A stretch of 64,000 nt of DNA from Pontibacter kalidii (lineage in GTDB: Bacteria; Bacteroidota; Bacteroidia; Cytophagales; Hymenobacteraceae), in NCBI RefSeq assembly GCF_026278245.1, contig NZ_CP111079.1, forward strand, positions 1,490,501 through 1,554,500. Direction: 5' to 3'. The notes beneath the pieces were generated by a model. The model ran no database searches, had not been told where the DNA came from, and was given only the letters and a program-made list of their open reading frames with translations. Positions 1-64,000 of this stretch are shown here, one piece after another. Every line of letters starts with the position of its first letter. Position 1 is the stretch's first letter. The translations under genes were made by a program, and so were the position numbers.

Positions 1-2
1 TG

Positions 3-1208
3 ATGCCCGCTACCAAGGTACAGGCGCAGCAACCGGAGCAGCCCGATACGGTTTACTTTACCTCGAACCGTAGCAAGATTGTGTTGCCCTTCAAATTGGT
101 GCACAACCTCATCGTGCTTCCGGTGCGGATCAACAACTCCCGGCCCCTCAACTTCATCCTGGATTCCGGGGTGCGCAACACACTGATCACGCAGTTGTAT
201 TTTTCTGACTCCCTTGACCTGAACGAGTTCAACCGGATCAAGATCAGGGGCTTGGGGGAGGGCTACACCGTGGAGGCGCTGCACAGTACCGGCAACAACA
301 TGTACATGCCCGGGGTGAGGGGCGATAACCATACGGTGTATGTGCTGCTGGAGGATGTCTTTGACCTTTCCATGCGGATGGGGATGCCCGTGCACGGCAT
401 CATCGGCTACGATATCTTCAAGAACTTTATCGTGAAGATAAACTATAGCAGCGAGACCATAACCCTCTACAGGCCTGATGTTAAGTTAAAGAAGAAACGA
501 AGGGCGGAGGAATACCCCCTGCACATCGAGGATTCTAAACCCTACCTGTATGGCTCGGTGAGGCAGCACAATGGCGATTCGCTGGACGTGAAGCTGATCG
601 TGGATACTGGCGCCAGCCACAGCCTCTCGCTTTACCTGCCCACCAACGAGCGACTGACGCTACCCCCAAAGGTGATGCAGGCCTACCTGGGCAGGGGCCT
701 GGGGGGGGATATAAATGGTAAAATAGGGAGACTGGAGGGCTTCAGCCTGGGCAAGTATAAACTGGAGAACCTGACCGCCTCTTACCCTGACGAGGAGGCG
801 GTGAAGCTGGCACTCAACATTGCCGGCCGTAACGGAAACCTGGGGTCCGCCATCCTCAAACGCTTCACGGTCATCTTCGATTACCCGCACCAGCGCATCA
901 CACTCCTCCCTAACCGCAGGTTTAAGGAGCCCTTCAACTATAACATGGCAGGGTTTGAGATCAGCACGCCGCTGCCAGGGGCCAATTTTTACGTGGTTTC
1001 CAATGTGGTGGAGGACTCACCGGCTAAGATGGTGGGCATGCAGCCGGGCGACCAGATCCTACTCATAAACGGCAGAGACTGTCAGGAACTGCAGCTGCAG
1101 GAGCTGCTGAACATGCTCGACAGCAAGCCCGGGCGTAAGCTTAAGCTTCGGCTAAAGCGGGAGCAGCAGATCATAAATGTGGACTTTGTCCTGCAGAGCC
1201 GCATCTGA
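3..1208 (+). CDS. Retropepsin-like aspartyl protease with C-terminal PDZ domain (5' partial)
   Basis: This is a predicted envelope-associated aspartic protease of the clan AA type. Two protease half-sites are visible: FILDSG around residue 54 and LIVDTGASHS around residue 201. Each resembles the catalytic D-S/T-G motif, so the chain could form an intramolecular two-lobe enzyme. Residues about 315-400 form a PDZ domain, with SPAKMVGMQPGDQILLING as the usual PDZ core, probably for substrate or partner binding. The first in-frame ATG is at the window edge and is followed by ATKVQAQ, which looks like the end of a signal peptide. The true start is therefore probably upstream, outside the window. 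The gene is followed convergently, after 2 bases, by a small membrane protein. The fold assignment is secure; the substrate is unknown. Confidence 0.8.
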   Translation: MPATKVQAQQPEQPDTVYFTSNRSKIVLPFKLVHNLIVLPVRINNSRPLNFILDSGVRNTLITQLYFSDSLDLNEFNRIKIRGLGEGYTVEALHSTGNNMYMPGVRGDNHTVYVLLEDVFDLSMRMGMPVHGIIGYDIFKNFIVKINYSSETITLYRPDVKLKKKRRAEEYPLHIEDSKPYLYGSVRQHNGDSLDVKLIVDTGASHSLSLYLPTNERLTLPPKVMQAYLGRGLGGDINGKIGRLEGFSLGKYKLENLTASYPDEEAVKLALNIAGRNGNLGSAILKRFTVIFDYPHQRITLLPNRRFKEPFNYNMAGFEISTPLPGANFYVVSNVVEDSPAKMVGMQPGDQILLINGRDCQELQLQELLNMLDSKPGRKLKLRLKREQQIINVDFVLQSRI

Positions 1209-1210
1209 GT

Positions 1211-1507
1211 TTATAGCGCTGCGGCCGCTCCCGGCTGCTGGAGGTCCAGGAAGATCTGGAAGATAAGCAGCAGCACGGCAAATACGATGAGCAGGATGGC
1301 GGCATAGGTGCGCACCCTGGGGATTGGCTTCACATATTCGTTCCCCCGCTCATCCACACCGGTAAACCGGAGGTCCGAAAGTATAAGCCCGTTGCCAAAG
1401 CTCAACCAGATAGCCGCCATCAGCGCATCCCGGGTAAAGAACAGCGACACCAGGCCGATGGCCGAGAAGAGGATACCAATGATAACTCTGATAGAGAGGT
1501 TTTTCAT
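1211..1507 (-). CDS. Small hypothetical membrane protein
   Basis: The gene encodes 98 residues that I do not recognise as a named family. Residues about 7-24 (VIIGILFSAIGLVSLFF) and 70-90 (AAILLIVFAVLLLIFQIFL) are clear membrane segments, with a weaker hydrophobic stretch at 28-45. The polar segment between them contains ILSDLRFTGVDERGNEYVKPIPR. It probably sits in the inner membrane. It is convergent with the protease/PDZ gene, and its upstream side opens onto the long spacer before the arginine cluster. No function can be proposed. Confidence 0.6.
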   Translation of the reverse strand: MKNLSIRVIIGILFSAIGLVSLFFTRDALMAAIWLSFGNGLILSDLRFTGVDERGNEYVKPIPRVRTYAAILLIVFAVLLLIFQIFLDLQQPGAAAAL

Positions 1508-1775
1508 GCCAGCAACGTTTAAGTGCGTCTAACCCGCAGGGGCTATTGCGGCCGCAATTTACATTTTTTGCCTTAGAAGTATGGCGCCCGAACTTTAATA
1601 GCGTTCCGAATGTATAGAGGGAGCAGCTTTTAAAGTATAGGATTGTTGTTAATGTCTGCTGAAGTATAAATTTTTAAACAATCTTACGCCGTTAGTTGCA
1701 ATTGCCATTTCTATTACGAAACATTTGCATTGCTAATTAGGGTATAACAACGACCCACTATTCTCTAGAAACGAA

Positions 1776-2773: not shown

Positions 2774-2804
2774 ATTCGCATCATCAGCAAGTATAAACAT
2801 AGAA

Positions 2805-4007
2805 ATGAAGAAAGTAGTTTTAGCCTTTAGCGGCGGCCTCGACACCTCCTACTGCGCCATTTACCTGGCACAGGAGCTCGGCCTGGAAGTATACTCAGCC
2901 ATTGTAGACACCGGCGGTTTCTCGGAAGAGGAGCTGAAAGAAATTGAGCGCAGGGCCTACGCGATGGGCGTAAAACAGCACACCCACCTCAACGAGACAG
3001 AGCACTTTTATAACAGCTGCATCCGCTTCCTGGTGTACGGCAACATCCTCAAGAACAACACCTACCCCTTGAGCGTGAGCGCCGAGCGCGTAACACAGGC
3101 CATCGCCATTGCCAACCATGCGAAAAGTATAGGAGCCGACTATGTGGCTCACGGCAGTACCGGTGCCGGCAACGACCAGGTGCGCTTCGACATGGTATTC
3201 CAAGCGCTGATTCCTGAGGTGGAGATCATCACCCCGATCCGCGATAAGCGACTCTCGCGCGAAGAGGAGATCACCTACCTGAAAGAGCATGGCGTGGAGA
3301 TGGACTTCCAGAAGGCGCAGTATTCGATCAACAAGGGCATCTGGGGAACATCCGTGGGAGGCAAGGAAACCCTGACCTCGCACCTGCCGCTGCCGGAGGA
3401 GGCCTATCCTACACAACTGAGCAAAACCGAGCCGGAGCGCGTGACCTTACACTTTGAGAAGGGCGAACTGAAAGGCGTTAATGATAAATCGTTTGAGCAC
3501 CCGGTACAGGCCATCCAGTACCTGCAGGAGCTGGCCGCGCCCTTTGCCATTGGCCGCGACATGCACGTAGGCGATACCATCATCGGCATTAAAGGCCGTG
3601 TGGGCTTTGAGGCGGCCGCCCCGATGGTCATCATCAAGGCGCACCACTTGCTGGAGAAGCATGTGCTTACCAAGTGGCAGCTCTACTGGAAAGACCAGCT
3701 GTCGGCCTGGTACGGCAACTGGCTACACGAGGGGCAGCTGCTCGACCCGACCATGCGCGACATCGAGGCTTTCCTGGAGAGCACCCAGCAAAACGTAACA
3801 GGAAAAGTGTTTGTGCAGCTAGCGCCTTACCACTTCCAGGTGCAGGGCATTGAGAGCGCACACGACCTGATGAGCGATAAGTTTGGCAGCTACGGCGAGA
3901 TGAACCGCGCCTGGACCTCCGACGACGTGAAAGGCTTTGCCAAGATCTTCGGCAACCAAACCAAAATGTACCACACAGTAAACAACACAGCGGAATGGGC
4001 GGATTAA
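2805..4007 (+). CDS. argG: Argininosuccinate synthase
   Basis: The enzyme condenses citrulline and aspartate with ATP to form argininosuccinate, the penultimate step of arginine synthesis. The N-terminal PP-loop AFSGGLDTSYC (residues 8-18) is the ATP-pyrophosphatase signature. AHGSTGAGNDQVRFD at about residues 115-129 is the aspartate/citrulline region, and YSINKGIWGTSVGG follows as expected. The length of 400 residues is typical. ATG 2805 gives the standard MKKVVLAFSGGLDTS start. The end of the gene overlaps argC by 13 bases, which implies translational coupling. Confidence 0.96.
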   Translation: MKKVVLAFSGGLDTSYCAIYLAQELGLEVYSAIVDTGGFSEEELKEIERRAYAMGVKQHTHLNETEHFYNSCIRFLVYGNILKNNTYPLSVSAERVTQAIAIANHAKSIGADYVAHGSTGAGNDQVRFDMVFQALIPEVEIITPIRDKRLSREEEITYLKEHGVEMDFQKAQYSINKGIWGTSVGGKETLTSHLPLPEEAYPTQLSKTEPERVTLHFEKGELKGVNDKSFEHPVQAIQYLQELAAPFAIGRDMHVGDTIIGIKGRVGFEAAAPMVIIKAHHLLEKHVLTKWQLYWKDQLSAWYGNWLHEGQLLDPTMRDIEAFLESTQQNVTGKVFVQLAPYHFQVQGIESAHDLMSDKFGSYGEMNRAWTSDDVKGFAKIFGNQTKMYHTVNNTAEWAD

Positions 4008-4999
4008 GTATAAAAGCAGGCATTGTAGGCGGCGCAGGCTATACCGGCGGCGAACTGCTGCGCCTGCTCCTCCACCACCCCAATGTAGAAATTGCCTTTG
4101 TGCACAGCAACAGCCAGGCCGGCAAGCCGGTATATGATACGCACCAAGACCTGTTCGGGGATACAGACTTATACTTTACTGACGAGTTGCAGCAGGGCGT
4201 GGATGTGCTGTTTTTGTGTGTAGGGCATGGGGCGGCAAAGCAGTTTTTAGAGGCTGCGCAATTGCCAGCAAGTGTAAAAATCATCGACCTGAGCCAGGAC
4301 TTCCGCTGGAATGAAAGCTTGAAGGAAGCGGTAGTAAGTGGCTGTGAGAGAGATTTTGTATATGGGCTGCCGGAACTGCAGCGCGAAAGTATAAAGCAGG
4401 CGCACAGCATCGCCAACCCCGGCTGCTTTGCCACCGCTATTCAACTGGCGCTGCTGCCGCTGGCGCAGCAAAACCTGCTGACCGAGGAAGTGCACGTAAG
4501 TGGCATCACGGGTAGTACCGGTGCTGGCCAGAGCCTGAGTGCCACCTCGCACTACAGCTGGCGCAGCGGCAACATCTCCAACTATAAAGTCCTCAACCAC
4601 CAGCACCTGCACGAGATCCGCCGTACCCTGCAGGGGATGCAAACCAATGCATTGCCAGGTATAAACTTTGTGCCGTACCGTGGCCCTTTTACCCGTGGCA
4701 TACTTTGCACCAGTTATACCCGCTGCGGGCTAAGCCAGGAAGAGGCAGAACAACTTTACCTTAGCTTTTACAGTACCCATCCGTTCGTGAGCATCAGCCA
4801 AAGCACCCCGGACCTGAAGCAGGTAGTGAACACAAACAAATGCCTGCTGCACCTGCAGAAGGAAGGCGATTACCTGGTCATCACCAGCCTGATCGATAAC
4901 CTGCTGAAAGGAGCCTCCGGCCAGGCCGTGCAGAACATGAACCTGCTGTTCGGGCTAAACGAGCAGGCGGGGCTAAGGCTGAAGGCATCGGCCTTTTAA
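3995..4999 (+). CDS. argC: N-acyl-gamma-glutamyl-phosphate reductase
   Basis: This NADPH-dependent reductase converts N-acylglutamyl phosphate to the semialdehyde. Residues 7-24 (AGIVGGAGYTGGELLRLL) form the Rossmann nucleotide-binding loop. SIANPGCFATAIQLAL at about residues 137-152 holds the catalytic cysteine that forms the thioacyl intermediate. HYSWRSGNISNYKVLNHQHLHE and GPFTRGILC are family regions. The length of 334 residues is normal for the Bacteroidota form. The chosen ATG overlaps the 3' end of argG by 13 bases. An acyl group larger than acetyl is likely, given the neighbouring succinylornithine-type transcarbamylase. Confidence 0.95.
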   Translation: MGGLSIKAGIVGGAGYTGGELLRLLLHHPNVEIAFVHSNSQAGKPVYDTHQDLFGDTDLYFTDELQQGVDVLFLCVGHGAAKQFLEAAQLPASVKIIDLSQDFRWNESLKEAVVSGCERDFVYGLPELQRESIKQAHSIANPGCFATAIQLALLPLAQQNLLTEEVHVSGITGSTGAGQSLSATSHYSWRSGNISNYKVLNHQHLHEIRRTLQGMQTNALPGINFVPYRGPFTRGILCTSYTRCGLSQEEAEQLYLSFYSTHPFVSISQSTPDLKQVVNTNKCLLHLQKEGDYLVITSLIDNLLKGASGQAVQNMNLLFGLNEQAGLRLKASAF

Positions 5000-5149
5000 G
5001 ATCGTTATGCGTTGCTCGTTATTAGTTATTCGATTCAGCTTATAGACCTGAACAACAGTTTAACAATACAACCATCAACAATTAAATATATGTACGTCGA
5101 GTATTTCCTTTATTGTTTAACCTCTTACCTCTAAATCATACTTCACAGC

Positions 5150-6304
5150 ATGAACGTATTTGATGTTTATCCGCTCTTCGATATCACGCCCGTTCGGGCA
5201 CAAGGCGCCTACGTCTGGGACGACAAAGGCACGCGTTACCTCGACCTATACGGCGGTCATGCCGTTATCTCCATCGGTCACAGCCATCCGCACTATGTAA
5301 AGCGCATCGCGCGCCAACTCTACGATATTGGTTTTTATTCTAACTCGGTGCAGATACCGATGCAACAGGAGTTGGCTGAGAAACTGGGCCAACTCAGCGG
5401 CTACGAAGATTACAGCCTTTTCCTGTGCAACTCAGGTGCCGAGGCCAATGAGAACGCCCTGAAGCTGGCCTCATTCCAGACAGGTCGTAAAAAAGTCATT
5501 TCTTTTAAAGGCGCTTTCCATGGCCGTACCTCTGCCGCCGTGGCCGCCACCGACGACGCCAAGATTCAGGCGCCGATCAACAAGACGGATAACATCATTT
5601 TTCTACCCCTGAACGATATTTCGGCCTTCTGTTCGGCTCTGCAGGAACATGGCCCCGAACTGGCCGCCGTGATTGTGGAGGGTATACAGGGTGTGGGTGG
5701 CGTGCAACTGCCGGAGCCGGCCTTCCTCAAAGCGCTTGCGGCAGGTTGTGAGAAAGTGGGCGCGCTGCTGATCCTGGACGAGGTGCAATCGGGCTACGGA
5801 CGCTCGGGCAAGTTCTTTGCCCACCAACACGCGGATATCAAGCCGCACCTGATCACGATGGCCAAAGGAATGGGCAATGGCTTCCCGGTGGCCGGTGTGT
5901 TGATTCACCCGGAAATTGAGGCCAAGCATGGGATGCTGGGCACTACGTTTGGCGGCAATTACCTGGCCTGTGCCGCAGCCCTGGCCGTAGTGGAAGTGAT
6001 AAAGGAGGAGAACCTGATGGAAAACGCGCAACACATTGGGCAGCGCCTGATGAACGAGCTGCGCCAGTTTTCAGGTGTTAAAGACGTGCGCGGCCAGGGA
6101 CTTATGATCGGTGTGGAACTCGACAAGCCATGCGCCCCTATCCGCAAGCAGCTGCTGGAGGAATACCAGATCTTCACTGGCTCCTCGTCTGATAAGAATA
6201 CGCTGCGCCTGTTGCCTCCGCTGGGCATTGGCCTGCGCGAAGTAGAGAAATTCCTGGAGGCTTTCGAGGCTATCCTTTATCAAACCGAACCACAATCCAT
6301 CTAA
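5150..6304 (+). CDS. argD: N-acylornithine aminotransferase (PLP-dependent)
   Basis: The 384-residue class III aminotransferase transfers an amino group from glutamate to N-acylglutamate semialdehyde, giving N-acylornithine. CNSGAEANENALKLA (about residues 94-108) is the PLP phosphate-binding region. LILDEVQSGYGRSGKFFA holds the aspartate that pairs with the pyridine nitrogen. ITMAKGMGNGFPVAGVL contains the Schiff-base lysine, and TTFGGNYLACAAALAV follows. It is separated from argC by about 150 AT-rich bases, and its stop overlaps the argF' start by one base. The substrate acyl group is probably succinyl here; the protein itself cannot show that. Confidence 0.94.
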   Translation: MNVFDVYPLFDITPVRAQGAYVWDDKGTRYLDLYGGHAVISIGHSHPHYVKRIARQLYDIGFYSNSVQIPMQQELAEKLGQLSGYEDYSLFLCNSGAEANENALKLASFQTGRKKVISFKGAFHGRTSAAVAATDDAKIQAPINKTDNIIFLPLNDISAFCSALQEHGPELAAVIVEGIQGVGGVQLPEPAFLKALAAGCEKVGALLILDEVQSGYGRSGKFFAHQHADIKPHLITMAKGMGNGFPVAGVLIHPEIEAKHGMLGTTFGGNYLACAAALAVVEVIKEENLMENAQHIGQRLMNELRQFSGVKDVRGQGLMIGVELDKPCAPIRKQLLEEYQIFTGSSSDKNTLRLLPPLGIGLREVEKFLEAFEAILYQTEPQSI

Positions 6305-7254
6305 TGAGAAAGTATACTTCTGTGCACGATGTGGCCGACCTGAACCAGCTGGTGGAGGAAGCGCAGCACCTGAAAGAAAACCCCTACAAGTATAAAGTCC
6401 TCGGCGAGAACAAGACGCTGGGCCTTATTTTCCTGAACCCAAGCCTGCGCACGCGCCTGAGCACGCAGAAAGCCGGCCAGAACCTGGGCATGAATGTGAT
6501 CGTGATGAACCTGGACAAGGAAGGTTGGGCGCTGGAGACGCGGGAGGGAGCCGTGATGAACGGCACCACGGTGGAGCACATCAAAGAAGCCGCCGCCGTG
6601 ATGGGTGCGTATTGCGACATCATCGGTATCCGCTCTTTCCCGAAACTGCAGAACCGCGATGAGGACTATAACGAAGAGCTACTGCAGCAGTTCATTAAGT
6701 ATAGCCAAAAGCCTATCGTGAGTTTAGAATCTGCCACCCGCCACCCACTGCAAAGCCTGGCCGACCTGCTGACCATCAAAGAAAATGCCGCTGCCGGCAA
6801 GCGCCCGAAAGTAGTGCTGAGCTGGGCACCGCATATCAAGCCAATCCCGCAGTGCGTGGCCAACTCATTTGCCGAGTGGATGGGGCAGGCCGACGTAGAC
6901 CTGGTGATCACGCACCCGGAAGGCTATGAGCTGGCTGAGGAGTTCACCCAAAACGCCACTGTGACGACCAACCAACAGGAGGCGCTGCAGGATGCCGATT
7001 TCGTGTACGTAAAGAACTGGTCGAGCTATTCTGAGTATGGGCAGGTGCTCACGGACGGCGAAGGCTGGATGCTGACGAACGAGAAGCTGCAGGCAACCAA
7101 CAATGCCAAAGTGATGCACTGCCTGCCGGTGCGCCGCAACGTGGAGCTGAGCGATGAGATTCTGGACGGGCCAAACTCGCTGGTACTCGAGCAGGCCAAT
7201 AACCGCACCTTCGCGGCCCAGGCCGTGCTCAAGCGCATGCTGGAAGCTTTATAA
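6304..7254 (+). CDS. argF': N-succinylornithine-type transcarbamylase
   Basis: The protein carbamoylates an N-acylated ornithine instead of free ornithine. FLNPSLRTRLSTQKA (residues 43-57) is the carbamoyl-phosphate loop, with the S-L-R-T-R variant of the family motif. WAPHIKPIPQCVANSFAEWM is the proline-rich loop characteristic of the acetyl/succinyl branch, and MHCLPVRRNVELSDE is the conserved C-terminal motif. The key specificity position, Glu92 in Xanthomonas acetylornithine transcarbamylase and Pro90 in Bacteroides fragilis succinylornithine transcarbamylase, is Val90 here (NGTTVEH). A small non-acidic residue at that site is known to favour N-succinylornithine. The length of 316 residues is typical. 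It is a one-base overlap partner of argD. Confidence 0.9.
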   Translation: MRKYTSVHDVADLNQLVEEAQHLKENPYKYKVLGENKTLGLIFLNPSLRTRLSTQKAGQNLGMNVIVMNLDKEGWALETREGAVMNGTTVEHIKEAAAVMGAYCDIIGIRSFPKLQNRDEDYNEELLQQFIKYSQKPIVSLESATRHPLQSLADLLTIKENAAAGKRPKVVLSWAPHIKPIPQCVANSFAEWMGQADVDLVITHPEGYELAEEFTQNATVTTNQQEALQDADFVYVKNWSSYSEYGQVLTDGEGWMLTNEKLQATNNAKVMHCLPVRRNVELSDEILDGPNSLVLEQANNRTFAAQAVLKRMLEAL

Positions 7255-7263
7255 GAGACAATA

Positions 7264-7364
7264 GACAAAGGAGTTTGTGACAAAAGACCAGTCAATCCTA
7301 TATGGCTGTCCTTTGTCATAATTTCTTTTATCATCTTTGTCCTTTGTCAAACAGTCTTTTGTCA
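7264..7364. repeat. Self-complementary spacer built from TTTGTC words
   Basis: Between argF' and argB the word TCCTTTGTC occurs at 7309-7317 and 7340-7348, with its complement GACAAAGGA at 7264-7272. TGACAAAAGAC at 7278-7288 pairs exactly with GTCTTTTGTCA at 7354-7364. The spacer can therefore fold into a long imperfect hairpin. It may modulate transcript stability or termination within the operon. Confidence 0.6.
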
Positions 7365-7370
7365 ATAATA

Positions 7371-8159
7371 ATGATCATAGTAAAGATAGGCGGCAACATC
7401 CTGGACAGCCCGGAGCGGCTGCAGTTGTTTCTGGCGGACTTCGCCGCTTTGCCGGGTCCAAAACTGCTGGTACATGGCGGTGGCAAAATTGCTTCTGCCT
7501 TTGGCCAGCGACTGGGCATTACGCCTAAAATGGTGGAAGGACGCCGCATTACGGATGCCGAAACGCTGGAGCTGGTAACGATGGTGTATGGCGGCTTGGT
7601 GAACAAGCAGGTGGTGGCCAAGCTGCAGGCACTTGGCTGCAACGCCATTGGCCTTACCGGCGCTGACGGCAACATTATTCCGGCACAAAAGCGGCCTGTT
7701 AAAACAATTGATTATGGTTTTGTAGGCGATGTGTCTGGCCCGGAAAGTATAAACGTGCCCGCGCTGGAGGCCATGATAGAGGCAGGGCTTACACCTGTCT
7801 TTGCCCCACTCACCCATGATACCCAGGGCAATATGCTCAACACGAACGCCGATACCATTGCCTCTGTGCTGGCTACGGCACTGGCGACGAAGTATAAAGT
7901 ACAACTGATGTACTGCTTCGAGAAAAAAGGCGTGCTGCAGAATGCCGAGGATGAGGAGTCTGTTATTCCGCACATCACTGCTGAAAAGTATAAAACGCTG
8001 AAAGAAGAGGGTGTGGTAAGTGCCGGTATGGTACCAAAACTCGATAATGCCTTTGCCGCGCTGGCACAGGGAGTACACGCGGTACAGATTGGCGACGCTG
8101 CAGCTATCGCGCAGATGGCAGCCGGAGGAGGACAGGCAGGAACATTGATTACGCTGTAG
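7371..8159 (+). CDS. argB: N-acylglutamate kinase
   Basis: The kinase phosphorylates the gamma-carboxylate of N-acylglutamate. MIIVKIGGNILDS is the standard start, so ATG 7371 was chosen over an upstream ATG at 7302 that would add 23 unrelated residues. LLVHGGGKIASAFGQRLG is the glycine-rich ATP/substrate loop, and GLTGADGNIIPAQ and MLNTNADTIASVLA are family motifs. The resulting 262 residues match the family. No N-terminal extension with an arginine-sensing helix is present, so feedback inhibition by arginine is less likely than in hexameric ArgB. The substrate is probably N-succinylglutamate, by inference from the cluster. Confidence 0.93.
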   Translation: MIIVKIGGNILDSPERLQLFLADFAALPGPKLLVHGGGKIASAFGQRLGITPKMVEGRRITDAETLELVTMVYGGLVNKQVVAKLQALGCNAIGLTGADGNIIPAQKRPVKTIDYGFVGDVSGPESINVPALEAMIEAGLTPVFAPLTHDTQGNMLNTNADTIASVLATALATKYKVQLMYCFEKKGVLQNAEDEESVIPHITAEKYKTLKEEGVVSAGMVPKLDNAFAALAQGVHAVQIGDAAAIAQMAAGGGQAGTLITL

Positions 8160-8253
8160 CTCAATTAGCTGTGTCACGCCGGGTTGCTACATGGCATGCT
8201 AAAATTGCTTATATTGCTATTATGGCAAAGTGCCCTTTTCTAAAACAGCAGCA

Positions 8254-9081
8254 ATGACAAGTAAATCGACAGAAAGCAAGAAAATAGCCATCATAGGCGG
8301 CGGCAACATGGGTGTGGCCCTGGCTAAGGGAATCGTTGCCTCTGGTCTGCACCAGGCAAGCGACATCACTCTTACCCGCCGCAACCTTCGCTCACTCGAA
8401 AGCCTGGCGCAGGAAGGTTACCAGGTAACCAGCCATAACGAGGCGGCAGTGGCGGCAGCCGATATCATCATACTGAGCATCCTGCCGCAACAGCTCAACG
8501 GTGTGCTCGATGCTATTGCCGCTGTAGTTGATCCGCAGCGCCACCTGTTCGTTTCCATTGTGACCGGGGTGAAGGTGGCCGATATTGTGCAGCGTGTGGG
8601 TAAAGAGGTACAGGTGATCCGAGCCATGCCCAACACGGCCATTGCCATCCGTGAGTCGATGACCTGTATTGCCGGAAGTCAGGCGACAGAGGAGAATCAG
8701 GCGCTGGTGCGGCAAATCTTCCAGGCCGTTGGGGAGACGGTGGAGATAGAGGAGGAGCTGATGACTTCTGCCACCGCGCTTTGTGCCTGCGGCATTGCTT
8801 TCTTCCTCCGCTCCATACGCGCGGCAACGCAGGGGGGCACCGAAATCGGCTTCCATGCCGGGGATGCGCTGCGCATGGCAGCACAAACGGCAAAAGGTGC
8901 AGCATCCTTGCTGCTTCATTTCCAGAGCCATCCCGAAAACGAGATCGACAAGGTTACTTCTCCGAAGGGATGCACCATTGCCGGACTCAACGAAATGGAG
9001 CACCACGGCTTTAGCTCTGCCATGATCAAGGGCATTAAAACATCCTCTCATAAAGCCGAGCAGCTTTATAAAAACGAATAA
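8254..9081 (+). CDS. proC: Pyrroline-5-carboxylate reductase
   Basis: The enzyme reduces 1-pyrroline-5-carboxylate to proline with NAD(P)H. KIAIIGGGNMGVALAKGIV is the Rossmann loop near the N terminus, and VIRAMPNTAIAIRESMTCI is the substrate-binding family motif. SPKGCTIAGLNEMEHHGF near the C terminus matches the highly conserved T-x-A-G-L-x-x-L-E region. ATG 8254 (MTSKSTESK) is preferred to an ATG at 8230 because the extra eight residues are not family-like. Its position inside the arginine cluster suggests that proline and arginine synthesis are expressed together. Confidence 0.92.
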   Translation: MTSKSTESKKIAIIGGGNMGVALAKGIVASGLHQASDITLTRRNLRSLESLAQEGYQVTSHNEAAVAAADIIILSILPQQLNGVLDAIAAVVDPQRHLFVSIVTGVKVADIVQRVGKEVQVIRAMPNTAIAIRESMTCIAGSQATEENQALVRQIFQAVGETVEIEEELMTSATALCACGIAFFLRSIRAATQGGTEIGFHAGDALRMAAQTAKGAASLLLHFQSHPENEIDKVTSPKGCTIAGLNEMEHHGFSSAMIKGIKTSSHKAEQLYKNE

Positions 9082-9096
9082 TTACAACACCAAAGC

Positions 9097-10164
9097 ATGA
9101 CTGACGGAAACCTCTACAACGAGGCTGTAGAACTTCTTAAATCATTGATTCAAACCCCTTCTCTTAGCCGGGAAGAAGACAAGACGGCTGCTCTGATTGA
9201 GCAGTTTCTGAAAAGGCATGGGGTAGCGAACGTACACCGCGAGCAGAACAACGTCTGGGCCTTTAACCGATATTATAACCCAGAGCTGCCCACGCTGCTC
9301 CTCAACTCGCACCACGATACGGTAAAGCCCAATGCCGGCTACACGCGCTATCCATTTGAGGCAAGTATAGAGAATGGAAAGCTTTATGGCCTGGGCAGTA
9401 ACGATGCCGGAGGCTGTCTGGTGTCGCTAGTAGCTGCGTTTTTATACTTCTACAACCGTAAGGATTTAACGTATAACCTAGCGCTGGCGGCCACGGCAGA
9501 AGAGGAGATCAGCGGGCGAAACGGCATCGAAAGCATACTTGCGCAACTTGGTCCCCTGGAGGCAGCTATTGTAGGAGAGCCCACCGAAATGCACCTGGCC
9601 GTCGCCGAGAAAGGACTGATGGTACTTGATTGCATTGCCCAGGGCAAAGCCGGGCACGCCGCCCGTGAGGAAGGTATCAACGCCATTTACGCAGCGCTTC
9701 CGGATATTCAGTGGTTTCAGAGCTATACGTTCCCGGAGGTATCGGAGCACCTGGGTCCGGTAAAGATGAGCGTAACGGTAGTACAGGCCGGTACGCAGCA
9801 TAACGTGGTGCCCGACACCTGCTCCTTTACCGTGGACGTGCGCCTGACGGACGCTTACACCCTGGAGGAAGTGCTTGAAACGATACAGCAAAATGTAAAA
9901 GCGGAGGTAAAGCCGCGCTCCATGCGCCTCAAGCCTTCCAGCATTCCGATGGAGCACCCACTGGTGCAAACGGGTATACAATTGGGCCGCAAAACCTACG
10001 GCTCACCCACCACCTCCGATCAGGCCCTGCTGCCGATTCCATCGCTCAAAATGGGTCCGGGCTTCTCCGGCCGTTCCCACATGGCCGATGAATTTATTTA
10101 CCTTCAGGAGATAGAGGAAGGTATAAATCTTTACATCGAGTTGCTGGAGAAAGTAATTTCTTAA
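9097..10164 (+). CDS. argE: M20-family N-acylornithine/N-acylcitrulline deacylase
   Basis: This zinc-dependent M20 peptidase-fold amidohydrolase removes the acyl group from the arginine intermediate. LLNSHHDTVKPNAGYT contains the first metal histidine, YGLGSNDAGGCLVS the bridging aspartate and ATAEEEISGRNG the general-base and ligand glutamates. VGEPTEMHLAVAEKGLM is the family motif ahead of the dimerisation lid. The length of 355 residues is typical of the short Bacteroidota form. It starts 15 bases after proC. With a transcarbamylase that acts on acylated ornithine, the physiological substrate is likely N-succinylcitrulline. The symbol denotes family role, not proven specificity. Confidence 0.88.
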   Translation: MTDGNLYNEAVELLKSLIQTPSLSREEDKTAALIEQFLKRHGVANVHREQNNVWAFNRYYNPELPTLLLNSHHDTVKPNAGYTRYPFEASIENGKLYGLGSNDAGGCLVSLVAAFLYFYNRKDLTYNLALAATAEEEISGRNGIESILAQLGPLEAAIVGEPTEMHLAVAEKGLMVLDCIAQGKAGHAAREEGINAIYAALPDIQWFQSYTFPEVSEHLGPVKMSVTVVQAGTQHNVVPDTCSFTVDVRLTDAYTLEEVLETIQQNVKAEVKPRSMRLKPSSIPMEHPLVQTGIQLGRKTYGSPTTSDQALLPIPSLKMGPGFSGRSHMADEFIYLQEIEEGINLYIELLEKVIS

Positions 10165-10290
10165 TGACGAGTGATTAATGAATAATTATTGATGCAGATA
10201 ATCTGAATAAGCCATACTTAAAGCTTTTATTCTTTCATCATTCATCCAATACTTATTAATTCACTCATCCACTCAATCACGCATTCAAAA
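10165..10290. repeat. AT-rich self-complementary spacer between argE and argH
   Basis: GAGTGATTAATGAATAATT at the left and ATTATTAATTCACTC-like sequence at the right are imperfect complements, so the spacer can form a long bulged hairpin. The word ATTCA/ATTAA recurs throughout (CATTCATCC, TCACTCATCC, CACTCAATC). No gene or clear promoter is visible in it. Confidence 0.5.
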
Positions 10291-10299
10291 TTGAAAAGT

Positions 10300-11634
10300 A
10301 TGAAGCTTTGGCAGAAAAACACGGCGGTAGCCGCTGAGATAGAGAAATTTACCGTTGGCCGCGATGCGGAGCTGGACATGGAGCTGGCGCGCTTCGATGT
10401 GCTGGGCTCGCTGGCGCACACGCAGATGCTGCAACGTATCGGCCTGCTCACGGCAGAGGAGCTACAGGTGCTGCAGGCAGAGCTGAAGAACATTTACAAA
10501 AGTATAGAAGCAGGTGAGTTTGCCATTGAGACCGGCGTGGAGGACATTCACTCGCAGGTAGAGCTGGAGTTGACCAGAAGAGTGGGTGAGGCGGGCAAAA
10601 AGATCCACAGCGGCCGCTCACGCAACGACCAGGTGCTGGTAGACCTTAAGCTGTACTTCCGCCACCAGCTACAGGAGGTGGTGCAGGAGGTACAGGCTTT
10701 GTTTGAGGTGCTGCAGGCCCAGAGCGAGAAGTATAAACACGTGCTGTTGCCGGGCTACACCCACCTGCAGGTGGCGATGCCCTCGTCCTTTGGCCTGTGG
10801 TTTGGCGCCTATGCCGAGAGCTTGGTGGACGACATGCAGCTGCTGCTGGCCGCTTATAAGATAGCCGACAAAAACCCGCTGGGCTCTGCGGCTGGCTACG
10901 GCTCCTCCTTCCCGCTCAACCGCCAACTGACCACCGATCTGCTGGGCTTTGAAAGTATGAACTATAACGTGGTGTACGCGCAGATGGGCCGTGGCAAAAC
11001 CGAACGCACGGTGGCGGTAGCCCTGGCAGCCGTGGCCGCCACTCTGGCCCGCATGAGCATGGACCTGTGCCTGTACATGAGCCAGAACTTCAGCTTTGTT
11101 ACGCTCCCTGACCACCTGACCACCGGCTCCAGCATCATGCCGCACAAAAAGAACCCGGACGTGTTCGAGCTGCTGCGCGGCAAATGCAACAAGCTGCAGG
11201 CCCTGCCCACCGACATCAGCATGTTGCTCATCAACCTGCCCTCAGGCTACCACCGCGAGATGCAGCTGCTGAAGGAGAGCCTGTTCCCGGCTTTCCAGGA
11301 GCTCAGGAGCTGTCTGCAGATGATGGCCTACATGGCCGAGCAGCTGCAGGTGCGGGACAATATCCTGCAGGACGAGAAGTATAAATACCTCTTCAGCGTG
11401 GATGCCGTGAACGAACTGGTGCTGCAGGGAATGCCTTTCCGGGATGCCTATAAAGCGGTGGGCGAGCAGATCGAGGCCGGCACTTTTGAGGCTCCGGCGG
11501 AGGCCACCCATACCCACGAAGGCAGCATCGGCAACTTGTGTAACGACCAGATAGCCGGGCAGATGCAGCAACTGGTAGAGGCCTTCAATTTTGCGCGCGT
11601 GCAGCAGGCCTACGAGAAGCTCACTGAGGAATAG
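10300..11634 (+). CDS. argH: Argininosuccinate lyase
   Basis: The last arginine enzyme splits argininosuccinate to arginine and fumarate. HSGRSRNDQV (about residues 104-113) and TGSSIMPHKKNPD (about residues 277-289) are the two signature regions of the fumarase/aspartase superfamily; the latter carries the catalytic serine loop. ATG 10300 gives MKLWQKN, the usual start in this phylum; a TTG nine bases upstream is in frame but unnecessary. The 444-residue length is typical. A strong bidirectional terminator follows 41 bases downstream, which marks the end of the cluster. Confidence 0.96.
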   Translation: MKLWQKNTAVAAEIEKFTVGRDAELDMELARFDVLGSLAHTQMLQRIGLLTAEELQVLQAELKNIYKSIEAGEFAIETGVEDIHSQVELELTRRVGEAGKKIHSGRSRNDQVLVDLKLYFRHQLQEVVQEVQALFEVLQAQSEKYKHVLLPGYTHLQVAMPSSFGLWFGAYAESLVDDMQLLLAAYKIADKNPLGSAAGYGSSFPLNRQLTTDLLGFESMNYNVVYAQMGRGKTERTVAVALAAVAATLARMSMDLCLYMSQNFSFVTLPDHLTTGSSIMPHKKNPDVFELLRGKCNKLQALPTDISMLLINLPSGYHREMQLLKESLFPAFQELRSCLQMMAYMAEQLQVRDNILQDEKYKYLFSVDAVNELVLQGMPFRDAYKAVGEQIEAGTFEAPAEATHTHEGSIGNLCNDQIAGQMQQLVEAFNFARVQQAYEKLTEE

Positions 11635-24836: not shown

Positions 24837-25958
24837 TCAGAGCAGCATAAACCGCTTGCCCGGCAACGCTTTCACCATTCCTTTAAACTCCAGTCCTAAA
24901 AGGACCGAGGCTAAAAGACTAACCGGCACCTGCGCTTTCCAGCTCAGGTTATCCATGTGCTCCTCACGGGTTTGCTGCAGTACCTGCAGCACTTTCAACT
25001 CATCGGTATTAAATTCAGCGGGGTCAAAAGCAGGAGCGGAGACTTTCTTTTTTTGTGCAGCTTCGTCTTCCAGGTCCCAGTTCAATAGTTCCACCAGGTC
25101 CTGCACCGAGGTATAGGCCACGGCTTTCAGGGACTTTATCAGGTGGTTGGTGCCTTCTGAGACAGGGGAGGTGATGTTACCGGGCACCGCCATGACTTCC
25201 TTGTCGTAGCTGTGGGCAATGTCAGCGGTGATGAGCGTGCCGCTTCTCATGGCGGCCTCCACCACGATGGTGCAGTCGCTCATACCGGCAATGATACGGT
25301 TACGGGCCGGAAAGCGCGGAGCGTCAGGCTTGGTGCCAAAAGGGTTCTCAGTAAGCAAGCCTCCCTGCGAGAGCATGCGCTCGGCATACTTGCGGTGCAC
25401 GGCCGGGTAAACGGTTTCGGGCCCGCTGGCCATCACCCCAACAGTGGGCAGACCGGCCTGCAGCGCGGCCCGGTGCGCCACCACATCCACCCCATAGGCC
25501 AGTCCGCTCACGATCATGACGTTAAAAGGCTTCAGTTCTTCCACAATCCGCTCGGTTACCGCTTGGCCATAACTGGTTATCTGCCTGGTGCCTACCATGC
25601 TGATGATGCGGTGCTGGTTGAGGTTGGCATTGCCCCGGAAGTATAAAAGTGTGGGCGCGTCCGGGATCTGCTTGAGCCGGTCCGGGAACCTGGGCGAAGT
25701 ATAGAACAGCAGTTGCACCTCCTCTGCCTCGGCCCGTTTTACCCATTCCTCCGCCTGCAGCAAGGTGCCTCTGGCGTTCTCCTTTATACTTTGGATGAGT
25801 TTCGGGCCAACGCCCGGAATCTTCTGCAACCTAACCGGGGGAGCCTCAAAAACAGCTTTGGGCGATCCGCAGTAGCTCACCAGCTGCCGCGTCAGCTGCG
25901 CCCCTACGCCGGGCAGGCGGGTGATGGCAAGCTCGTAAATATTCTGTTCCTCTACCAT
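24837..25958 (-). CDS. dprA: DNA-processing protein DprA
   Basis: DprA loads RecA on incoming single-stranded DNA during natural transformation. The 373-residue protein has N-terminal helix-hairpin-helix segments (ITRLPGVGAQLTRQLV, LQKIPGVGPKLIQSI), a Rossmann core (MVGTRQITSYGQ, VSGLAYGVDVVAHRAAL, FPARNRIIAGMSDCTIVVEA, SGTLITADIA, VMAVPGNI) and a winged-helix C terminus (QTREEHMDNLSWKAQVPVSLLASVLLGLEFKGMVKALPG). It is complete. Its presence supports a capacity to take up DNA, which matters for the AAGTATA word discussed in the findings. The MerR gene lies just upstream. Confidence 0.94.
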   Translation of the reverse strand: MVEEQNIYELAITRLPGVGAQLTRQLVSYCGSPKAVFEAPPVRLQKIPGVGPKLIQSIKENARGTLLQAEEWVKRAEAEEVQLLFYTSPRFPDRLKQIPDAPTLLYFRGNANLNQHRIISMVGTRQITSYGQAVTERIVEELKPFNVMIVSGLAYGVDVVAHRAALQAGLPTVGVMASGPETVYPAVHRKYAERMLSQGGLLTENPFGTKPDAPRFPARNRIIAGMSDCTIVVEAAMRSGTLITADIAHSYDKEVMAVPGNITSPVSEGTNHLIKSLKAVAYTSVQDLVELLNWDLEDEAAQKKKVSAPAFDPAEFNTDELKVLQVLQQTREEHMDNLSWKAQVPVSLLASVLLGLEFKGMVKALPGKRFMLL

Positions 25959-25979
25959 AGGTAAAGAACTACGCAGCTT

Positions 25980-26327
25980 TTAGGCTTTGGTGTTCAGTTG
26001 TTCCTTGATGCCTTGCAAAAACGCCTTCACCTTCTCCAGGGATTCCACGATCTCCATCTTGTCCTTGGCCTGTACCGGCTTGTTTTTCATCACCTCGCGG
26101 GCGCCCTGTATGGTATAGCCGCGCTCCTTTACCAGGTGGTACACGGTGCGCAGCGTCTCAATGTCCTTCTGCGTGTACTGGCGGTTGCCTTTCTTATTCT
26201 TTTTGGGCTTCAGCTGCTCAAACTCGGTTTCCCAGAAACGAATCAGCGAGGGGGCAACGTCGAACATGGCGGCCACCTCCCCGATGGTATAATACTGCTT
26301 CTCTATCTCTTTTTCCTTGTATGGCAT
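25980..26327 (-). CDS. MerR-family transcriptional regulator
   Basis: The 115-residue protein has a MerR-type winged helix: YYTIGEVAAMFDVAPSLIRFWETEFEQLKPKKNKKGNRQYTQ in overlapping segments, with the wing K-G-N-R-Y/Q. The next helices (IETLRTVYHLVKERGYTIQGAREVM) match the second part of the domain. A short C-terminal helix (EKVKAFLQGIKEQL) replaces a ligand-binding domain, so no effector is evident. It reads divergently from alaS and lies 21 bases upstream of dprA on the same strand. Regulation of dprA is possible but unproven. Confidence 0.87.
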   Translation of the reverse strand: MPYKEKEIEKQYYTIGEVAAMFDVAPSLIRFWETEFEQLKPKKNKKGNRQYTQKDIETLRTVYHLVKERGYTIQGAREVMKNKPVQAKDKMEIVESLEKVKAFLQGIKEQLNTKA

Positions 26328-26399
26328 AATCCTGTATGGTTAATCGGGCAAAGCAGGCGTAATTTTTGTGCAATAGTTCCTGATTACGGCTAAATATGC

Positions 26400-26407
26400 T
26401 ACTTTTG
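26400..26407 (+). promoter_or_regulatory. Candidate -7 box of alaS
   Basis: TACTTTTG matches TAnnTTTG exactly and lies 121 bases upstream of the alaS ATG in the divergent spacer. No TTTG at the expected spacing was found, so the call is tentative. Confidence 0.4.
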
Positions 26408-26528
26408 CCCTTATTGTGCTTGTTGGTAACCGCTGTTAAAGAGGTATTACCGTTTGGCAAAAATTAGATATTTTTCGCTCTTAAACAACAAGTATAGCAC
26501 TAAGTATCTAAAGGCTTAACAATCATAC

Positions 26529-29165: not shown

Positions 29166-29222
29166 TTAATAATGAATAATGGAGAGTGATAAATTAGTCA
29201 TTCTTCATTCTTCATTAATCAT
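29164..29222. repeat. Self-complementary AT-rich spacer between alaS and gatB
   Basis: ATTAATAATGAATAATGGA on the left is an imperfect complement of TCATTCTTCATTCTTCATTA on the right. The spacer can form a bulged hairpin of more than 20 pairs. The word ATTCTTC is repeated in tandem. Confidence 0.6.
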
Positions 29223-29231
29223 TATAAAGAA

Positions 29232-30689: not shown

Positions 30690-30700
30690 AATAGCTAACC

Positions 30701-31825: not shown

Positions 31826-31867
31826 AAATCTCCGTGACGAGGAAGATTCCTCATTTCCTGACCATTC

Positions 31868-31911: not shown

Positions 31912-31963
31912 ATACTTCATACCTAAAAGTATGAATCCTGGAGTATACTTCCCTCTTAGGAGG

Positions 31964-32602: not shown

Positions 32603-32608
32603 GTATAC

Positions 32609-33142: not shown

Positions 33143-33233
33143 TCCAGATTGTTGTTTGTACGGGCAAAGATAAGGCGCCGGCGCCAAACGATAAAATCTA
33201 CTTCAGGGGCTACACAAAGTATAAGTAGTCCTG

Positions 33234-33893: not shown

Positions 33894-34044
33894 GTTTTAG
33901 TAGTCTAGTGTTCTTTAATGTAGCTTTACTGCCCCCGGTAGAGGCTTGTTTGCGAAAATAAGCATCTAAGGCCAATAAAGCTCGCTTAAAGGCCCTTTTC
34001 CTTTTTTTATTTTGAAATGCCGCGGCACCACGGCTTAATCGTAT

Positions 34045-34052
34045 TACTTTTG
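34045..34052 (+). promoter_or_regulatory. Candidate -7 box of riboflavin synthase
   Basis: TACTTTTG matches TAnnTTTG and lies 66 bases before the chosen ATG. A TTTG at 34011-34014 is too far upstream (about 30 bases) to be a standard -33 box. No FMN riboswitch signature is visible between this box and the gene. Confidence 0.4.
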
Positions 34053-34118
34053 GTAAACATTTTTTGCGGCAGCCGGATTTATACTTACGGCAACCAAACG
34101 AACTTCAAATTCTACGCT

Positions 34119-46391: not shown

Positions 46392-46708
46392 AATAGCAAC
46401 GGCTATCGAACTGATCCCAGCCTTTGGGTTGAGCGCCTTCTATTGATGCGGTGCTGAGCTTGCTCAGCAGCCCGGAGCGCCAGCGAGGAGCAGCTTCAAT
46501 AGGCCGCGCGATGCCAAAGGACGAGCCCTCCCGGGCTGGAGGGAGCCAAAGCCAGGAATGAAACGAGCAGGATTCAAGGCCGTGGATGAAGCCGCAGCTA
46601 ACAAGTATAACTTGGTTCAGTTGGCAGGAAGCGGTGGCAGGTAAAGGCTTAAGCCGACGCTTGCGCCAGAGAAGTATAAGGTTTGGCCGAAGTATAAATG
46701 TGGCTTTC

Positions 46709-46756
46709 GCGGACTACAAATCCGCTGCTTCATACTTTCGGATTACAATTCCGAAA
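46709..46756. repeat. Pair of GGATTACAATCC-type palindromes
   Basis: GCGGA/TCCGC (46709-46725, loop CTACAAA) is followed by TTTCGGA/TTCCGAAA around TTACAA. The loops share TACAA, suggesting two diverged copies of one REP-like unit. Confidence 0.65.
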
Positions 46757-46802
46757 GAGCGGGAGATTTGCGCCAGTAAGGTAGGCAAGTATAAAAGTAC
46801 AA

Positions 46803-62283: not shown

Positions 62284-62290
62284 CGTTCTC

Positions 62291-62875
62291 TTAAGCAGGG
62301 ATTACCTGGTCGAATTCCACTCTGATCTGCACCCTCTCGGCAAGTAATTCTGTGGCAGGCATCACGTTCACCCGGTCCGCTTCCTGGAAATATCTCGCGA
62401 GTCCTTTCACTATACCAATAGCAAATCCGGCCATCCTGCGCTTGGAGTGGTAATCGATAATGAGCGTGTTTTTGCCCACTTTGGTGACATACAACGGAGG
62501 TGGGTTGGTGTCGGCATTCTCCAGCTTTATGCTGCCATGCATGTGGGAGCCGATGTACTGCAGCATGTCGTAGGTTTTCCAGGAGGGATTCACGAATTTT
62601 TTAAAGACCAGCAACAGGTCAGGCACCAGGAATTCGCCAAAGTCTTGCTGAAATTCCGGGTAGGGAATCCCTTCCAGCAGTGCACCTTTCGCCATGATAG
62701 TATAGAGCTCCGAGACGGGGTAGGTCCCGTGCATCTGATAAGGCGCTGCCACCCGGTCTATGCCTTCTTCTTCCAGTATTCTGATCCAGGTGCTGTAATC
62801 GTGCCTGCTTTCCAGGTAACGCTTCAGAAAGAGGAAGATGGACCCGTGCATGAGGTCGTTCTTTATTCCGTGCAT
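62291..62875 (-). CDS. H-NOX (haem nitric oxide/oxygen-binding) protein
   Basis: The 194-residue protein carries the H-NOX haem-pocket residues at family spacing. Relative to Thermoanaerobacter H-NOX (His102, Pro115, Tyr131-x-Ser-x-Arg135), this protein has His113, Pro126 and Tyr142-His-Ser-Lys-Arg146, all with the same offsets. MHGIKNDLMHG and YSTWIRILEEEGID at the N terminus also fit. His113 would be the proximal haem ligand, and Y-x-S-x-R would bind the haem propionates. There is no fused cyclase, kinase or chemoreceptor domain, and no obvious partner next to it, so the output pathway is unknown. It is cytosolic. Confidence 0.85.
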   Translation of the reverse strand: MHGIKNDLMHGSIFLFLKRYLESRHDYSTWIRILEEEGIDRVAAPYQMHGTYPVSELYTIMAKGALLEGIPYPEFQQDFGEFLVPDLLLVFKKFVNPSWKTYDMLQYIGSHMHGSIKLENADTNPPPLYVTKVGKNTLIIDYHSKRRMAGFAIGIVKGLARYFQEADRVNVMPATELLAERVQIRVEFDQVIPA

Positions 62876-63062
62876 CGGCTAAAAGGTTGAAAAGGTGTTG
62901 AGTGTTGGTACGTATAAAGGTAACTGTCGCTGCAGCGACATAGGTATTACGGGAGAAAGCCGTGAAAGTAGAGGTACTAAATCCCTGCGAACTATCCTTA
63001 TCCAAAGATTCTTGCGTGCTCATCGCCCCGTCTCCGTTAAAGTATAAAATATTGATGAAAGC

Positions 63063-63094
63063 AAAACAGCCAGCCCCATTTCGGGAGCTGGCTG
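63063..63094 (-). terminator. Terminator downstream of the OmpA lipoprotein
   Basis: CAGCCAGC (63067-63074) pairs with GCTGGCTG (63087-63094), extended by an imperfect inner stem, and AAAA at 63063-63066 becomes a T-run on the minus strand. Confidence 0.75.
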
Positions 63095-63125
63095 CTTTAC
63101 TTTATACTTACACACGCTGCACTTC

Positions 63126-64000
63126 CTAGGTCGTCTCCAGGATCTTGAACAGCTCGTCGAGTTTCGGTGTCAGGATGATCTCGGTGCGGCGGTTCTTCTG
63201 GCGGGCCTCCTTTGTCTTGGCCTCGTCCAGCGGAACGTACTTCGAGCGGCCTGATGGTGTTACGCGGGTAGGATCTACGCCGGCGTTGGCCAGGATGCGG
63301 GTGATCTCCGTGGCGCGGAGCACACTTAGGTCCCAGTTGTCCTGCATGCCCACGGTGCCCCTGGCAATAGGCACATCATCCGTGTGGCCTTCTACCAGCA
63401 CGTTTACGTCCTGCTGCTCCTTCAGCACAGAAGCCAGCTTGCGCAGGGCGTCCACACCTTTGGGGTCTACCTTGGTGGAGCCGGAGTTGAACAGCAGCTG
63501 CTCTGCCAGCGATACGTATACTTTGCCGTTGCGCACGTCAATGGTCAGGTCTTTGTCGTTGAAGCCAAGCAGGGCCTTGCTCACGCGGTTGCGGAGGTTG
63601 GTTACGGCAGCATCTTTCTCATCCAGGATGCGCTGCAGTTCCGCCAGCCTCGCCTCACGGGCTTTCAGGTCGGCGTTCAGGCGGTCGATCTGCGATTTGC
63701 TCATGTTCAGGCTCTCGCCCAGGGTTTTTCCTTCTTTCAGGGCTTTGGCCAGGCTTTCCTCGTATTCGCGTTTCTGCTGCTCCAGTTTCGCGCGCTCTTC
63801 CTCCAGATTGGCTTTTGCTGCTTCCAGGTCAGCTTTCTGCTGCTCCAGGGTTGACTTCTCCTGCTGCAGTCCGGCCTTATCTACCTCCAGGGAGTTTTTG
63901 CGGGCCATCAGGTCATCGTATTTCTTCTTGGAAACCACGCACGACGAAAGCGACATGCTACCAGCCAGCAGTAGGATAGAGGCTTTGAATAGATGTTTTC
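63126..64000 (-). CDS. OmpA-family peptidoglycan-associated lipoprotein (5' partial)
   Basis: The visible chain of about 290 residues starts outside the window. Reading back from the edge, the frame continues KHLFKASILLLAGS into MSLSSC, a lipoprotein signal peptide with lipobox LSSC, so the ATG at 63956 is internal. A long coiled coil follows (about 100 residues of Lys/Glu/Gln heptads, such as LEQQKADLEAAKANLEEERA). The C-terminal OmpA domain contains LFNSGSTKVDP, VLVEGHTDDVPI and LSVLRATEITRIL, the peptidoglycan-binding motifs, and NRRTEIILTP at its end. It probably tethers the outer membrane to the cell wall, with a coiled-coil spacer. A terminator lies 32 bases downstream. Confidence 0.88.
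   Translation of the reverse strand, partial: KHLFKASILLLAGSMSLSSCVVSKKKYDDLMARKNSLEVDKAGLQQEKSTLEQQKADLEAAKANLEEERAKLEQQKREYEESLAKALKEGKTLGESLNMSKSQIDRLNADLKAREARLAELQRILDEKDAAVTNLRNRVSKALLGFNDKDLTIDVRNGKVYVSLAEQLLFNSGSTKVDPKGVDALRKLASVLKEQQDVNVLVEGHTDDVPIARGTVGMQDNWDLSVLRATEITRILANAGVDPTRVTPSGRSKYVPLDEAKTKEARQKNRRTEIILTPKLDELFKILETT

Follow-up and report, generated by a model that had tools for sequence, protein, structure and literature searches.

Abundance and form of the AAGTATA word

The 64,000-nucleotide stretch of Pontibacter kalidii DNA analysed here (contig NZ_CP111079.1, positions 1,490,501 to 1,554,500), hereafter the window, carries a group of syntenic genes that includes a complete dprA and alaS and, dispersed over its whole length, 113 exact copies of the heptamer AAGTATA, or approximately one per 570 bases (Table 1). 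In dinucleotide shuffles of the window, which has a GC content of 53.6%, the word occurs 4.46 times on average (standard deviation (sd) 2.34, maximum 13), and none of 100 shuffles reaches the observed number. The copies lie in both orientations, occupy all six reading frames and often use the less common codon ATA, in agreement with the first-pass annotation, which had counted about 110 copies by hand and described each of these properties. That annotation had also proposed that the rest of the genome be checked, and the excess is present there: the whole genome (5,054,860 bases in two contigs) contains 4451 + 4410 = 8,861 copies on the two strands, compared with 170 + 186 = 356 copies of the reversed control word. 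Such genome-wide over-representation on both strands is a property of uptake words.

A longer core had been suggested as well, and 45 copies of the extended form AAGTATAAA are found in the window. The flanks of AAGTATA contain 0.15 bits of information at position -1, 0.58 bits at +7 and 0.21 bits at +8, with A as the favoured base at all three, and at most 0.08 bits at every other position within 30 bases. The core of the word can be written as A-A-G-T-A-T-A/g, with A-A as the preferred next bases, and a second, weaker form, AAGTATG, is present 51 times in the window. The base that follows AAGTATA is A in 72 of the 113 copies and C, which would be compatible with a palindrome, in 19, so the word does not share the palindromic character of HIP1-like words.

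An order-5 Markov model that explained the count had been named as a refutation of the claim. Such a model of the window does predict 98 copies, but only because its 6-mers consist of AAGTATA itself; when the copies are masked, AGTATA drops from 139 to 22 (20.8 expected), and AAGTAT drops from 178 to 65 (23.1 expected), with the remainder being mainly AAGTATG. In the 56 open reading frames (ORFs) of the window, called with a simple caller at a minimum of 100 amino acids (aa), 79 copies are present, compared with 11.0 (sd 2.8, maximum 21) in 300 within-gene shuffles of synonymous codons. Masking and synonymous shuffling together rule out the Markov and codon explanations of the excess.

Distribution of the copies

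Placement was followed in a 444-kb sample of the same genome, consisting of the window and 19 stretches of 20 kb. In this sample, 448 copies lie within ORFs (simple caller), 267 between them and 15 on their edges. The ratio of intergenic to coding density is 3.36 for AAGTATA and 3.08 for 104 permutations of the same letters, some of which overlap the word, which indicates that the higher intergenic density is shown by any word of these letters and that the coding and intergenic excesses are similar. No clear strand skew is observed: with the sign of the GC skew defining the arms, 390 copies are in the leading and 340 in the lagging orientation (53% leading, p 0.07), and the stretches differ somewhat in orientation (chi-square 36.5, 20 degrees of freedom, p 0.013). 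The copies are clustered, in that 16% of 720 gaps (the plasmid stretch described below included) are shorter than 50 bases, compared with the expected 8%. Pairs separated by 14-60 bases are tandem in 52 cases and inverted in 39, and dyads of type AAGTATACTT, in which two copies overlap, are found 13 times.

The second contig, 73,841 bases long, has a stretch containing conjugation genes in common with a P. actiniarum plasmid (95%) and is likely a conjugative plasmid. Its first 20 kb contain 11 copies of AAGTATA, compared with 2.6 expected; the word is therefore scarcer there than in the window (113 versus 4.5). Apart from the word, the window contains a group of arginine genes, and CTGCAG is present 214 times, approximately twice the 107 copies given by a second-order model.

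Table 1. Features of the window, with positions counted from its first base.
Feature	Position	Strand	Details
AAGTATA set	1..64000	both	113 copies (62 +, 51 -)
Overlapping copy pair forming dyad AAGTATACTT	6310..6319	+ and -	copies at 6310 (+) and 6313 (-); example
Cluster of four same-orientation copies	46603..46793	+	starts at 46603, 46672, 46690 and 46787; example
dprA	24837..25958	-	complete, 373 aa; competence gene, interrupted in two of the 41 genomes of the genus
Eight syntenic genes	24837..34706		dprA, alaS, gatB, thioredoxin-fold protein, four others; used for species tree and word-site comparison
Arginine genes	2805..11634		argG, argC, argD, N-acetylornithine carbamoyltransferase, argB, ArgE/DapE-like deacylase, argH

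Dialects of the word in the genus

The genus was sampled with 41 Pontibacter genomes, that of P. kalidii included, and words were sought without a preset in 20 kb around alaS from the 40 others (14.3 kb from one). The alaS protein of the window is 84% identical to that of Pontibacter silvestris and 83% identical to that of P. pamirensis. AAGTATA (the A dialect) is carried by 18 of the 41 genomes, AGGTATA (C dialect, with G usually the next base) by ten, and AACTATA (B dialect, mostly followed by G or A) by three; the three words fit one frame, A-R-S-TATA. Two mixed genomes (G026 and G032) carry AAGTATA and AACTATA side by side, one genome has a weak AAGTATA (G007), and another has a weak and loose GGTAT[AG] (G036). 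Six genomes (G002, G023, G024, G025, G027 and G033) lack a comparable word over the 34 to 40 kb examined. The form AAGTATG is again the weaker one in the pooled sample of the 18 A genomes, with 341 copies versus 759.

The same words were counted in whole genomes. AAGTATA is present in 4,114 to 11,818 copies (8.8 to 38.5 times the reversed control) in 16 A genomes, the remaining two, G060 and G061, being classed on 20 kb only. The ten C genomes contain 5,748 to 9,303 copies of AGGTATA (17.7 to 38.4 times the control), and the three B genomes contain 12,640 to 13,168 copies of AACTATA (15 to 21 times). In the mixed genomes, AACTATA is found 8,118 and 6,094 times (11.4 and 7.3 times the control), and AAGTATA stands at 17.6 and 16.3 times its control. 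In other families of the order, 22 genomes show no excess of AAGTATA, with ratios to the control of 0.4 to 1.8.

Two faint signals were observed among the genomes classed as having no word. In G002 (alaS and comEC loci L149 and L261), AACTATA occurs 23 times in 40 kb, compared with 4.6 expected, and 1,655 times in the whole genome, compared with 943 for the control. In G027 and G023 (L148, L266, L127 and L263), GGTAGAG shows a weak excess in 40 kb (22 versus 2.5 and 21 versus 4.4 expected). This word is close to the AGGTATAG dialect yet may be unrelated to it, because the window, too, holds mildly more GTAGAG than expected (54 versus 17.9).

Dialects on the species tree and at aligned sites

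A quick tree without bootstrap was built from the eight syntenic proteins (2,925 columns; 45 rows, including four outgroup rows from Hymenobacter and Solirubrum). The dialects require 9 changes on this tree, compared with 20.4 in shuffles, none of 200 of which is as low; they are thus congruent with the phylogeny, as in the DNA-uptake sequences (DUS) of Neisseriaceae. The ten C genomes form one clade, whose sister G006 carries AAGTATA, and the five B and mixed genomes form another. AAGTATA itself is scattered over several separate lineages and hence appears to be the oldest dialect. The no-word genomes fall at three places in the tree, one of which (G025 and G027) is at the base.

The fate of individual sites was compared over 9,339 aligned coding columns with G007 and G036 left out; the comparisons are pairwise and therefore not independent of each other. 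Conservation of the copies, another check proposed in the first-pass annotation, is evident within the A dialect, where word sites are kept in other A genomes in 57.3% of 3,418 comparisons, and random 7-mers in 20.1% of 112,060. In the six no-word genomes, A sites are kept in 9.5% of 1,166 comparisons, and random 7-mers in 13.7% of 37,667. In the 1,961 comparisons of A sites with the ten C genomes, AGGTATA stands in place in 17.9% and AAGTATA is still present in 8.4%. In the 609 comparisons with B genomes, AAGTATA is still present in 36.9% and AACTATA is found in only 2.8%, which indicates that the B words are mostly at new sites.

Differences between A sites and the no-word genomes occur at each of the seven positions (0.18 to 0.37 per position), and two or more positions differ in 65% of the comparisons. 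The change at one fixed position that characterizes Vsr-type repair is not seen, and these data argue that the word is not made by a one-base repair or mutation step. The one-step neighbours of the word are not depleted, at 0.95 to 1.41 of the expected number.

Competence genes and the search for an uptake machine

The competence genes comEC, dprA and comF and a comEA-like gene (approximately 315 aa) are each found in all 41 genomes, with all comF matches lying below the curated cut-off of that model. Both dprA and comF are interrupted by stops in exactly two genomes, G021 and G009, and are open in the other 39. The comEC match also contains a stop in these two, and G021 is the sole genome with a broken comEA-like gene. 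In G018, comEC (L256) has a short frame of 561 aa (at least 702 in the others), with a frameshift near residue 540 of 701. In all 41 genomes, the matches to alaS and to an AddB-like gene are free of internal stops. In a comparison of syntenic genes over three regions (one covering 41 genomes, the other two covering 10), the broken genes of G021 that stand out are dprA and comEA; stops are also seen in several other ORFs across many genomes, most of these ORFs being overcalled or extended at their ends.

As would be expected for an uptake word, the four genes are present and constrained together, with the comEC-only frameshift of G018, and their shared breakage indicates one unit that is kept by most of the genus. 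Natural competence of Pontibacter would be the plain reading of this joint retention and breakage. The dprA gene, on which the first-pass annotation had based the suggestion of uptake, is indeed complete in the window, but dprA alone proves nothing because all 41 genomes carry it, the no-word ones included.

No type IV pilus ATPase was found in the 41 genomes with a PF00437 search, and hence there is no sign of a type IV pilus bearing a pilin of ComP type that binds the word; the search did not extend to ComP itself. The PF00437 matches cover P-loop stretches only (approximately 38-66 positions out of 370, the frames being 280-800 aa long), and two of the 41 genomes are just over the cut-off of 24.9, at 25.0 and 25.9 bits. 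Around comEC, where the gene content of 20 genomes was compared, no neighbouring gene follows the word, and a fast-changing ORF considered as a receptor looks spurious, being shorter than 100 aa in 12 of the 20.

Genome size

The 33 genomes with a word of any dialect have a mean size of 4.63 Mb, and the eight with a weak word or none have a mean size of 5.65 Mb (Mann-Whitney p 7e-5). Phylogenetic regression of genome size on the presence of a word gives -1.16 Mb (standard error 0.26), with the eight genomes representing only three lineages of the tree. The smaller size of the genomes with a word would fit the idea that foreign DNA is purged when kin transform one another. For P. korlensis, with a genome of 5.46 Mb, 114 transposase and integrase genes have been reported, and three further strains have between 5 and 28 (PMC4460873).

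Comparison with known systems and with other Bacteroidota

The uptake signal sequence of Pasteurellaceae is, like AAGTATA, an iterated, non-palindromic word, and is found in naturally competent genomes. It has long AT-rich flanks and is taken up with a type IV pilus, whereas the flank information of AAGTATA ends two bases out. The closest likeness is to the DUS dialects of Neisseriaceae described by Frye and others (2013, PMC3630211), where one genome also carries two dialects at once: thousands of copies lie in and between genes, dialects that share a core follow the phylogeny, and some relatives have no word. In contrast to that description, the Pontibacter core is ARSTATA rather than one containing CTG, the word is shorter, and the phylum is another one. 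Neither an excess of inverted pairs nor a sign of a ComP-type pilin is found in Pontibacter.

A precedent for the absence of a pilus exists within Bacteroidota. In Riemerella anatipestifer, where no pilus homologues were detected, transformation uses ComEC, DprA, ComF and a helix-hairpin-helix protein (PMC8459023), a set that resembles the one in Pontibacter, where no pilus ATPase was found. The two cases differ in that the term "uptake sequence" does not appear in the main text of the Riemerella paper and in that homologues of the extra uptake genes are reported there mainly in Flavobacteriaceae (PMC8459023); DUF5689, a domain encoded by one of the Riemerella uptake genes, does not match in Pontibacter.

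In a blind scan for words at 80 alaS loci of Bacteroidota type (two of them from Pontibacter without the word), Rhabdobacter roseus (L023, 22.7 kb) contains GGTACTT 72 times, compared with 8.4 expected, and a second form, GGTACCT, 44 times. This is an independent iterated word in another lineage of Cytophagales. CGGTTTT in Larkinella rosea (L022; 64 versus 18.3 expected) and the palindrome CCTAGG in Solirubrum puertoriconensis (L002; 50 versus 6.9) are also in excess. In Cognataquiflexum nitidum (L011), the enriched TCAGGGCT has flanks that are shared between copies, and in Saprospiraceae DHS20C18 (L065), 20 of 21 copies of the enriched GGTTTAG lie on one strand; in both cases, a dispersed or local repeat is therefore likelier than an iterated word.

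AAGTATA as a putative DNA-uptake word

The first-pass annotation had offered several roles for the word, and an uptake sequence is the best supported, because the dialects follow the tree, words are swapped in place, dprA, comF and comEC are broken together, and mixed-dialect genomes exist. The scarcity of the word on the likely plasmid, the low excess in G021 and the smaller size of genomes with a word also speak for this role. The HIP1-like behaviour that it also proposed is less apt, since the word is non-palindromic and changes between clades, and a one-base mismatch-repair bias is disfavoured. On the basis of these genomic comparisons, AAGTATA is probably a DNA-uptake word with dialects, served by a pilus-free, sequence-preferring uptake system; we place the probability of this reading at roughly 0.57. 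In its predicted role, the word would work like a DUS, but it is not filed as a member of that class, as pilus-based recognition was tested and not found.

We infer competence, a receptor, an uptake bias and a direction of change, which may be connected as follows. Pontibacter cells would be naturally competent through ComEC, the ComEA-like protein, ComF and DprA without a type IV pilus, and a surface or periplasmic receptor would prefer DNA that carries the word. DNA of kin would hence be taken up and recombined more often, such that word alleles would spread by this bias and the word would accumulate on both strands, within and between genes. A shift in the preference of the receptor would cause the word to drift to a new dialect, partly through point changes at old sites, and two dialects could coexist for a time during the shift. 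Where specificity is lost, the word would erode.

Several observations weigh against an uptake role. The presence of the word does not track the competence genes: comEC, dprA, comF and the comEA-like gene are all open in the six no-word genomes, which rules out the absence of any of them as the cause of word loss, so the loss would have to be one of specificity rather than of competence. Conversely, the word is at full strength in G009 (9,303 copies of AGGTATA) despite the broken competence genes of that genome, and G018, with its frameshifted comEC, contains 13,109 copies of AACTATA; recent loss or sequence errors are needed to reconcile these two drafts with uptake. Among the A genomes, the word excess is smallest in G021 (8.8 times the control in the whole genome, 6.1 times in the sample), which retains 21 of 43 old word sites, or 1.62 times the control, close to the 1.66 of G012 and below the 1.71 to 2.38 of the others. 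The expected erosion is thus only hinted at in G021, a pattern that would be compatible with recent losses without proving anything. In the 444-kb sample, inverted pairs are not in excess, as they typically are for Neisserial uptake words. No receptor was found. DUF5689, considered as an uptake protein of Riemerella type, was rejected, as it occurs patchily in 18 of the 41 genomes and does not follow the word; of five loci examined among these 18, four have a neighbour that resembles, on visual inspection, a SusC or SusD nutrient-uptake gene. Among the matches listed for the openly licensed literature, no report of uptake, transformation or competence in any Pontibacter was found, nor anything on an iterated word in the genus, although this does not establish absence from print.

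Among the alternatives, a Chi-like recombination word fares best and is still unlikely. An enzyme of the AddAB or RecBCD type would pause at the word and switch to recombination, with each clade having its own word. The AddB-like nuclease gene (approximately 970-1015 aa) is found in all 41 genomes, but the six no-word genomes carry it as well; AAGTATA shows no clear strand skew, and its approximately 25-fold excess is very large for Chi. Although Chi words are likewise over-represented and differ between lineages (PMC4390886, PMC3630211), the AT-rich AAGTATA departs from the GC-rich Chi sites described in PMC4390886.

It is less probable still that the word is a methylation site of HIP1 type, at which an orphan or restriction-linked methyltransferase would mark one strand, the mark would have a cellular role, and the dialects would reflect changes in specificity. 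Recognition domains change quickly, but restriction sites are usually avoided rather than iterated. HIP1 of cyanobacteria is a short word iterated genome-wide that contains the sites of two orphan methyltransferases and is replaced by other words in some genomes (Elhai 2015, PMC4390886). Unlike AAGTATA, which is a contiguous, non-palindromic 7- to 9-mer, the HIP words in that account are palindromic, mostly GC-rich and linked to orphan methyltransferases.

Comparably improbable is a site for a nucleoid or chromosome-organising protein, or a self-marker that spares the cell's own DNA from a defence nuclease. The high density on both strands, the reduced density on the likely plasmid and the clustering at short gaps would agree with such a site, but six related genomes live without the word, it has changed at least twice within one genus, and no candidate protein is known. 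Finally, a Vsr-like mutation or repair bias, or a codon-pair bias, that makes the word without selection is very improbable despite the frequent use of the codon ATA, given the changes at all seven positions, the undepleted neighbours, the similar coding and intergenic excesses and the result of synonymous shuffling.

Implications

DNA-uptake words with dialects are documented in Neisseriaceae and Pasteurellaceae, two families that use pili for uptake, and, if the uptake reading of AAGTATA is true, Pontibacter would represent a second phylum, with several dialects, mixed genomes and losses within one genus. The odds appear evenly balanced that Bacteroidota contain a further, independent case of sequence-specific transformation without type IV pili, in which a receptor reads the 8-9 bp ARSTATAR, and in which, within one genus, the preference has changed at least twice and been lost at least twice, with loss of the password accompanying larger genomes. 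Other Cytophagales with words of their own would then be further cases, among them Rhabdobacter with AGGTACTT. Related Pontibacter species would no longer share a DNA password, and a gene that changes with the dialect would be a way to find the pilus-free uptake receptor. DNA passwords would thus evolve repeatedly, and an environmental genus would offer natural comparisons for why they do so.

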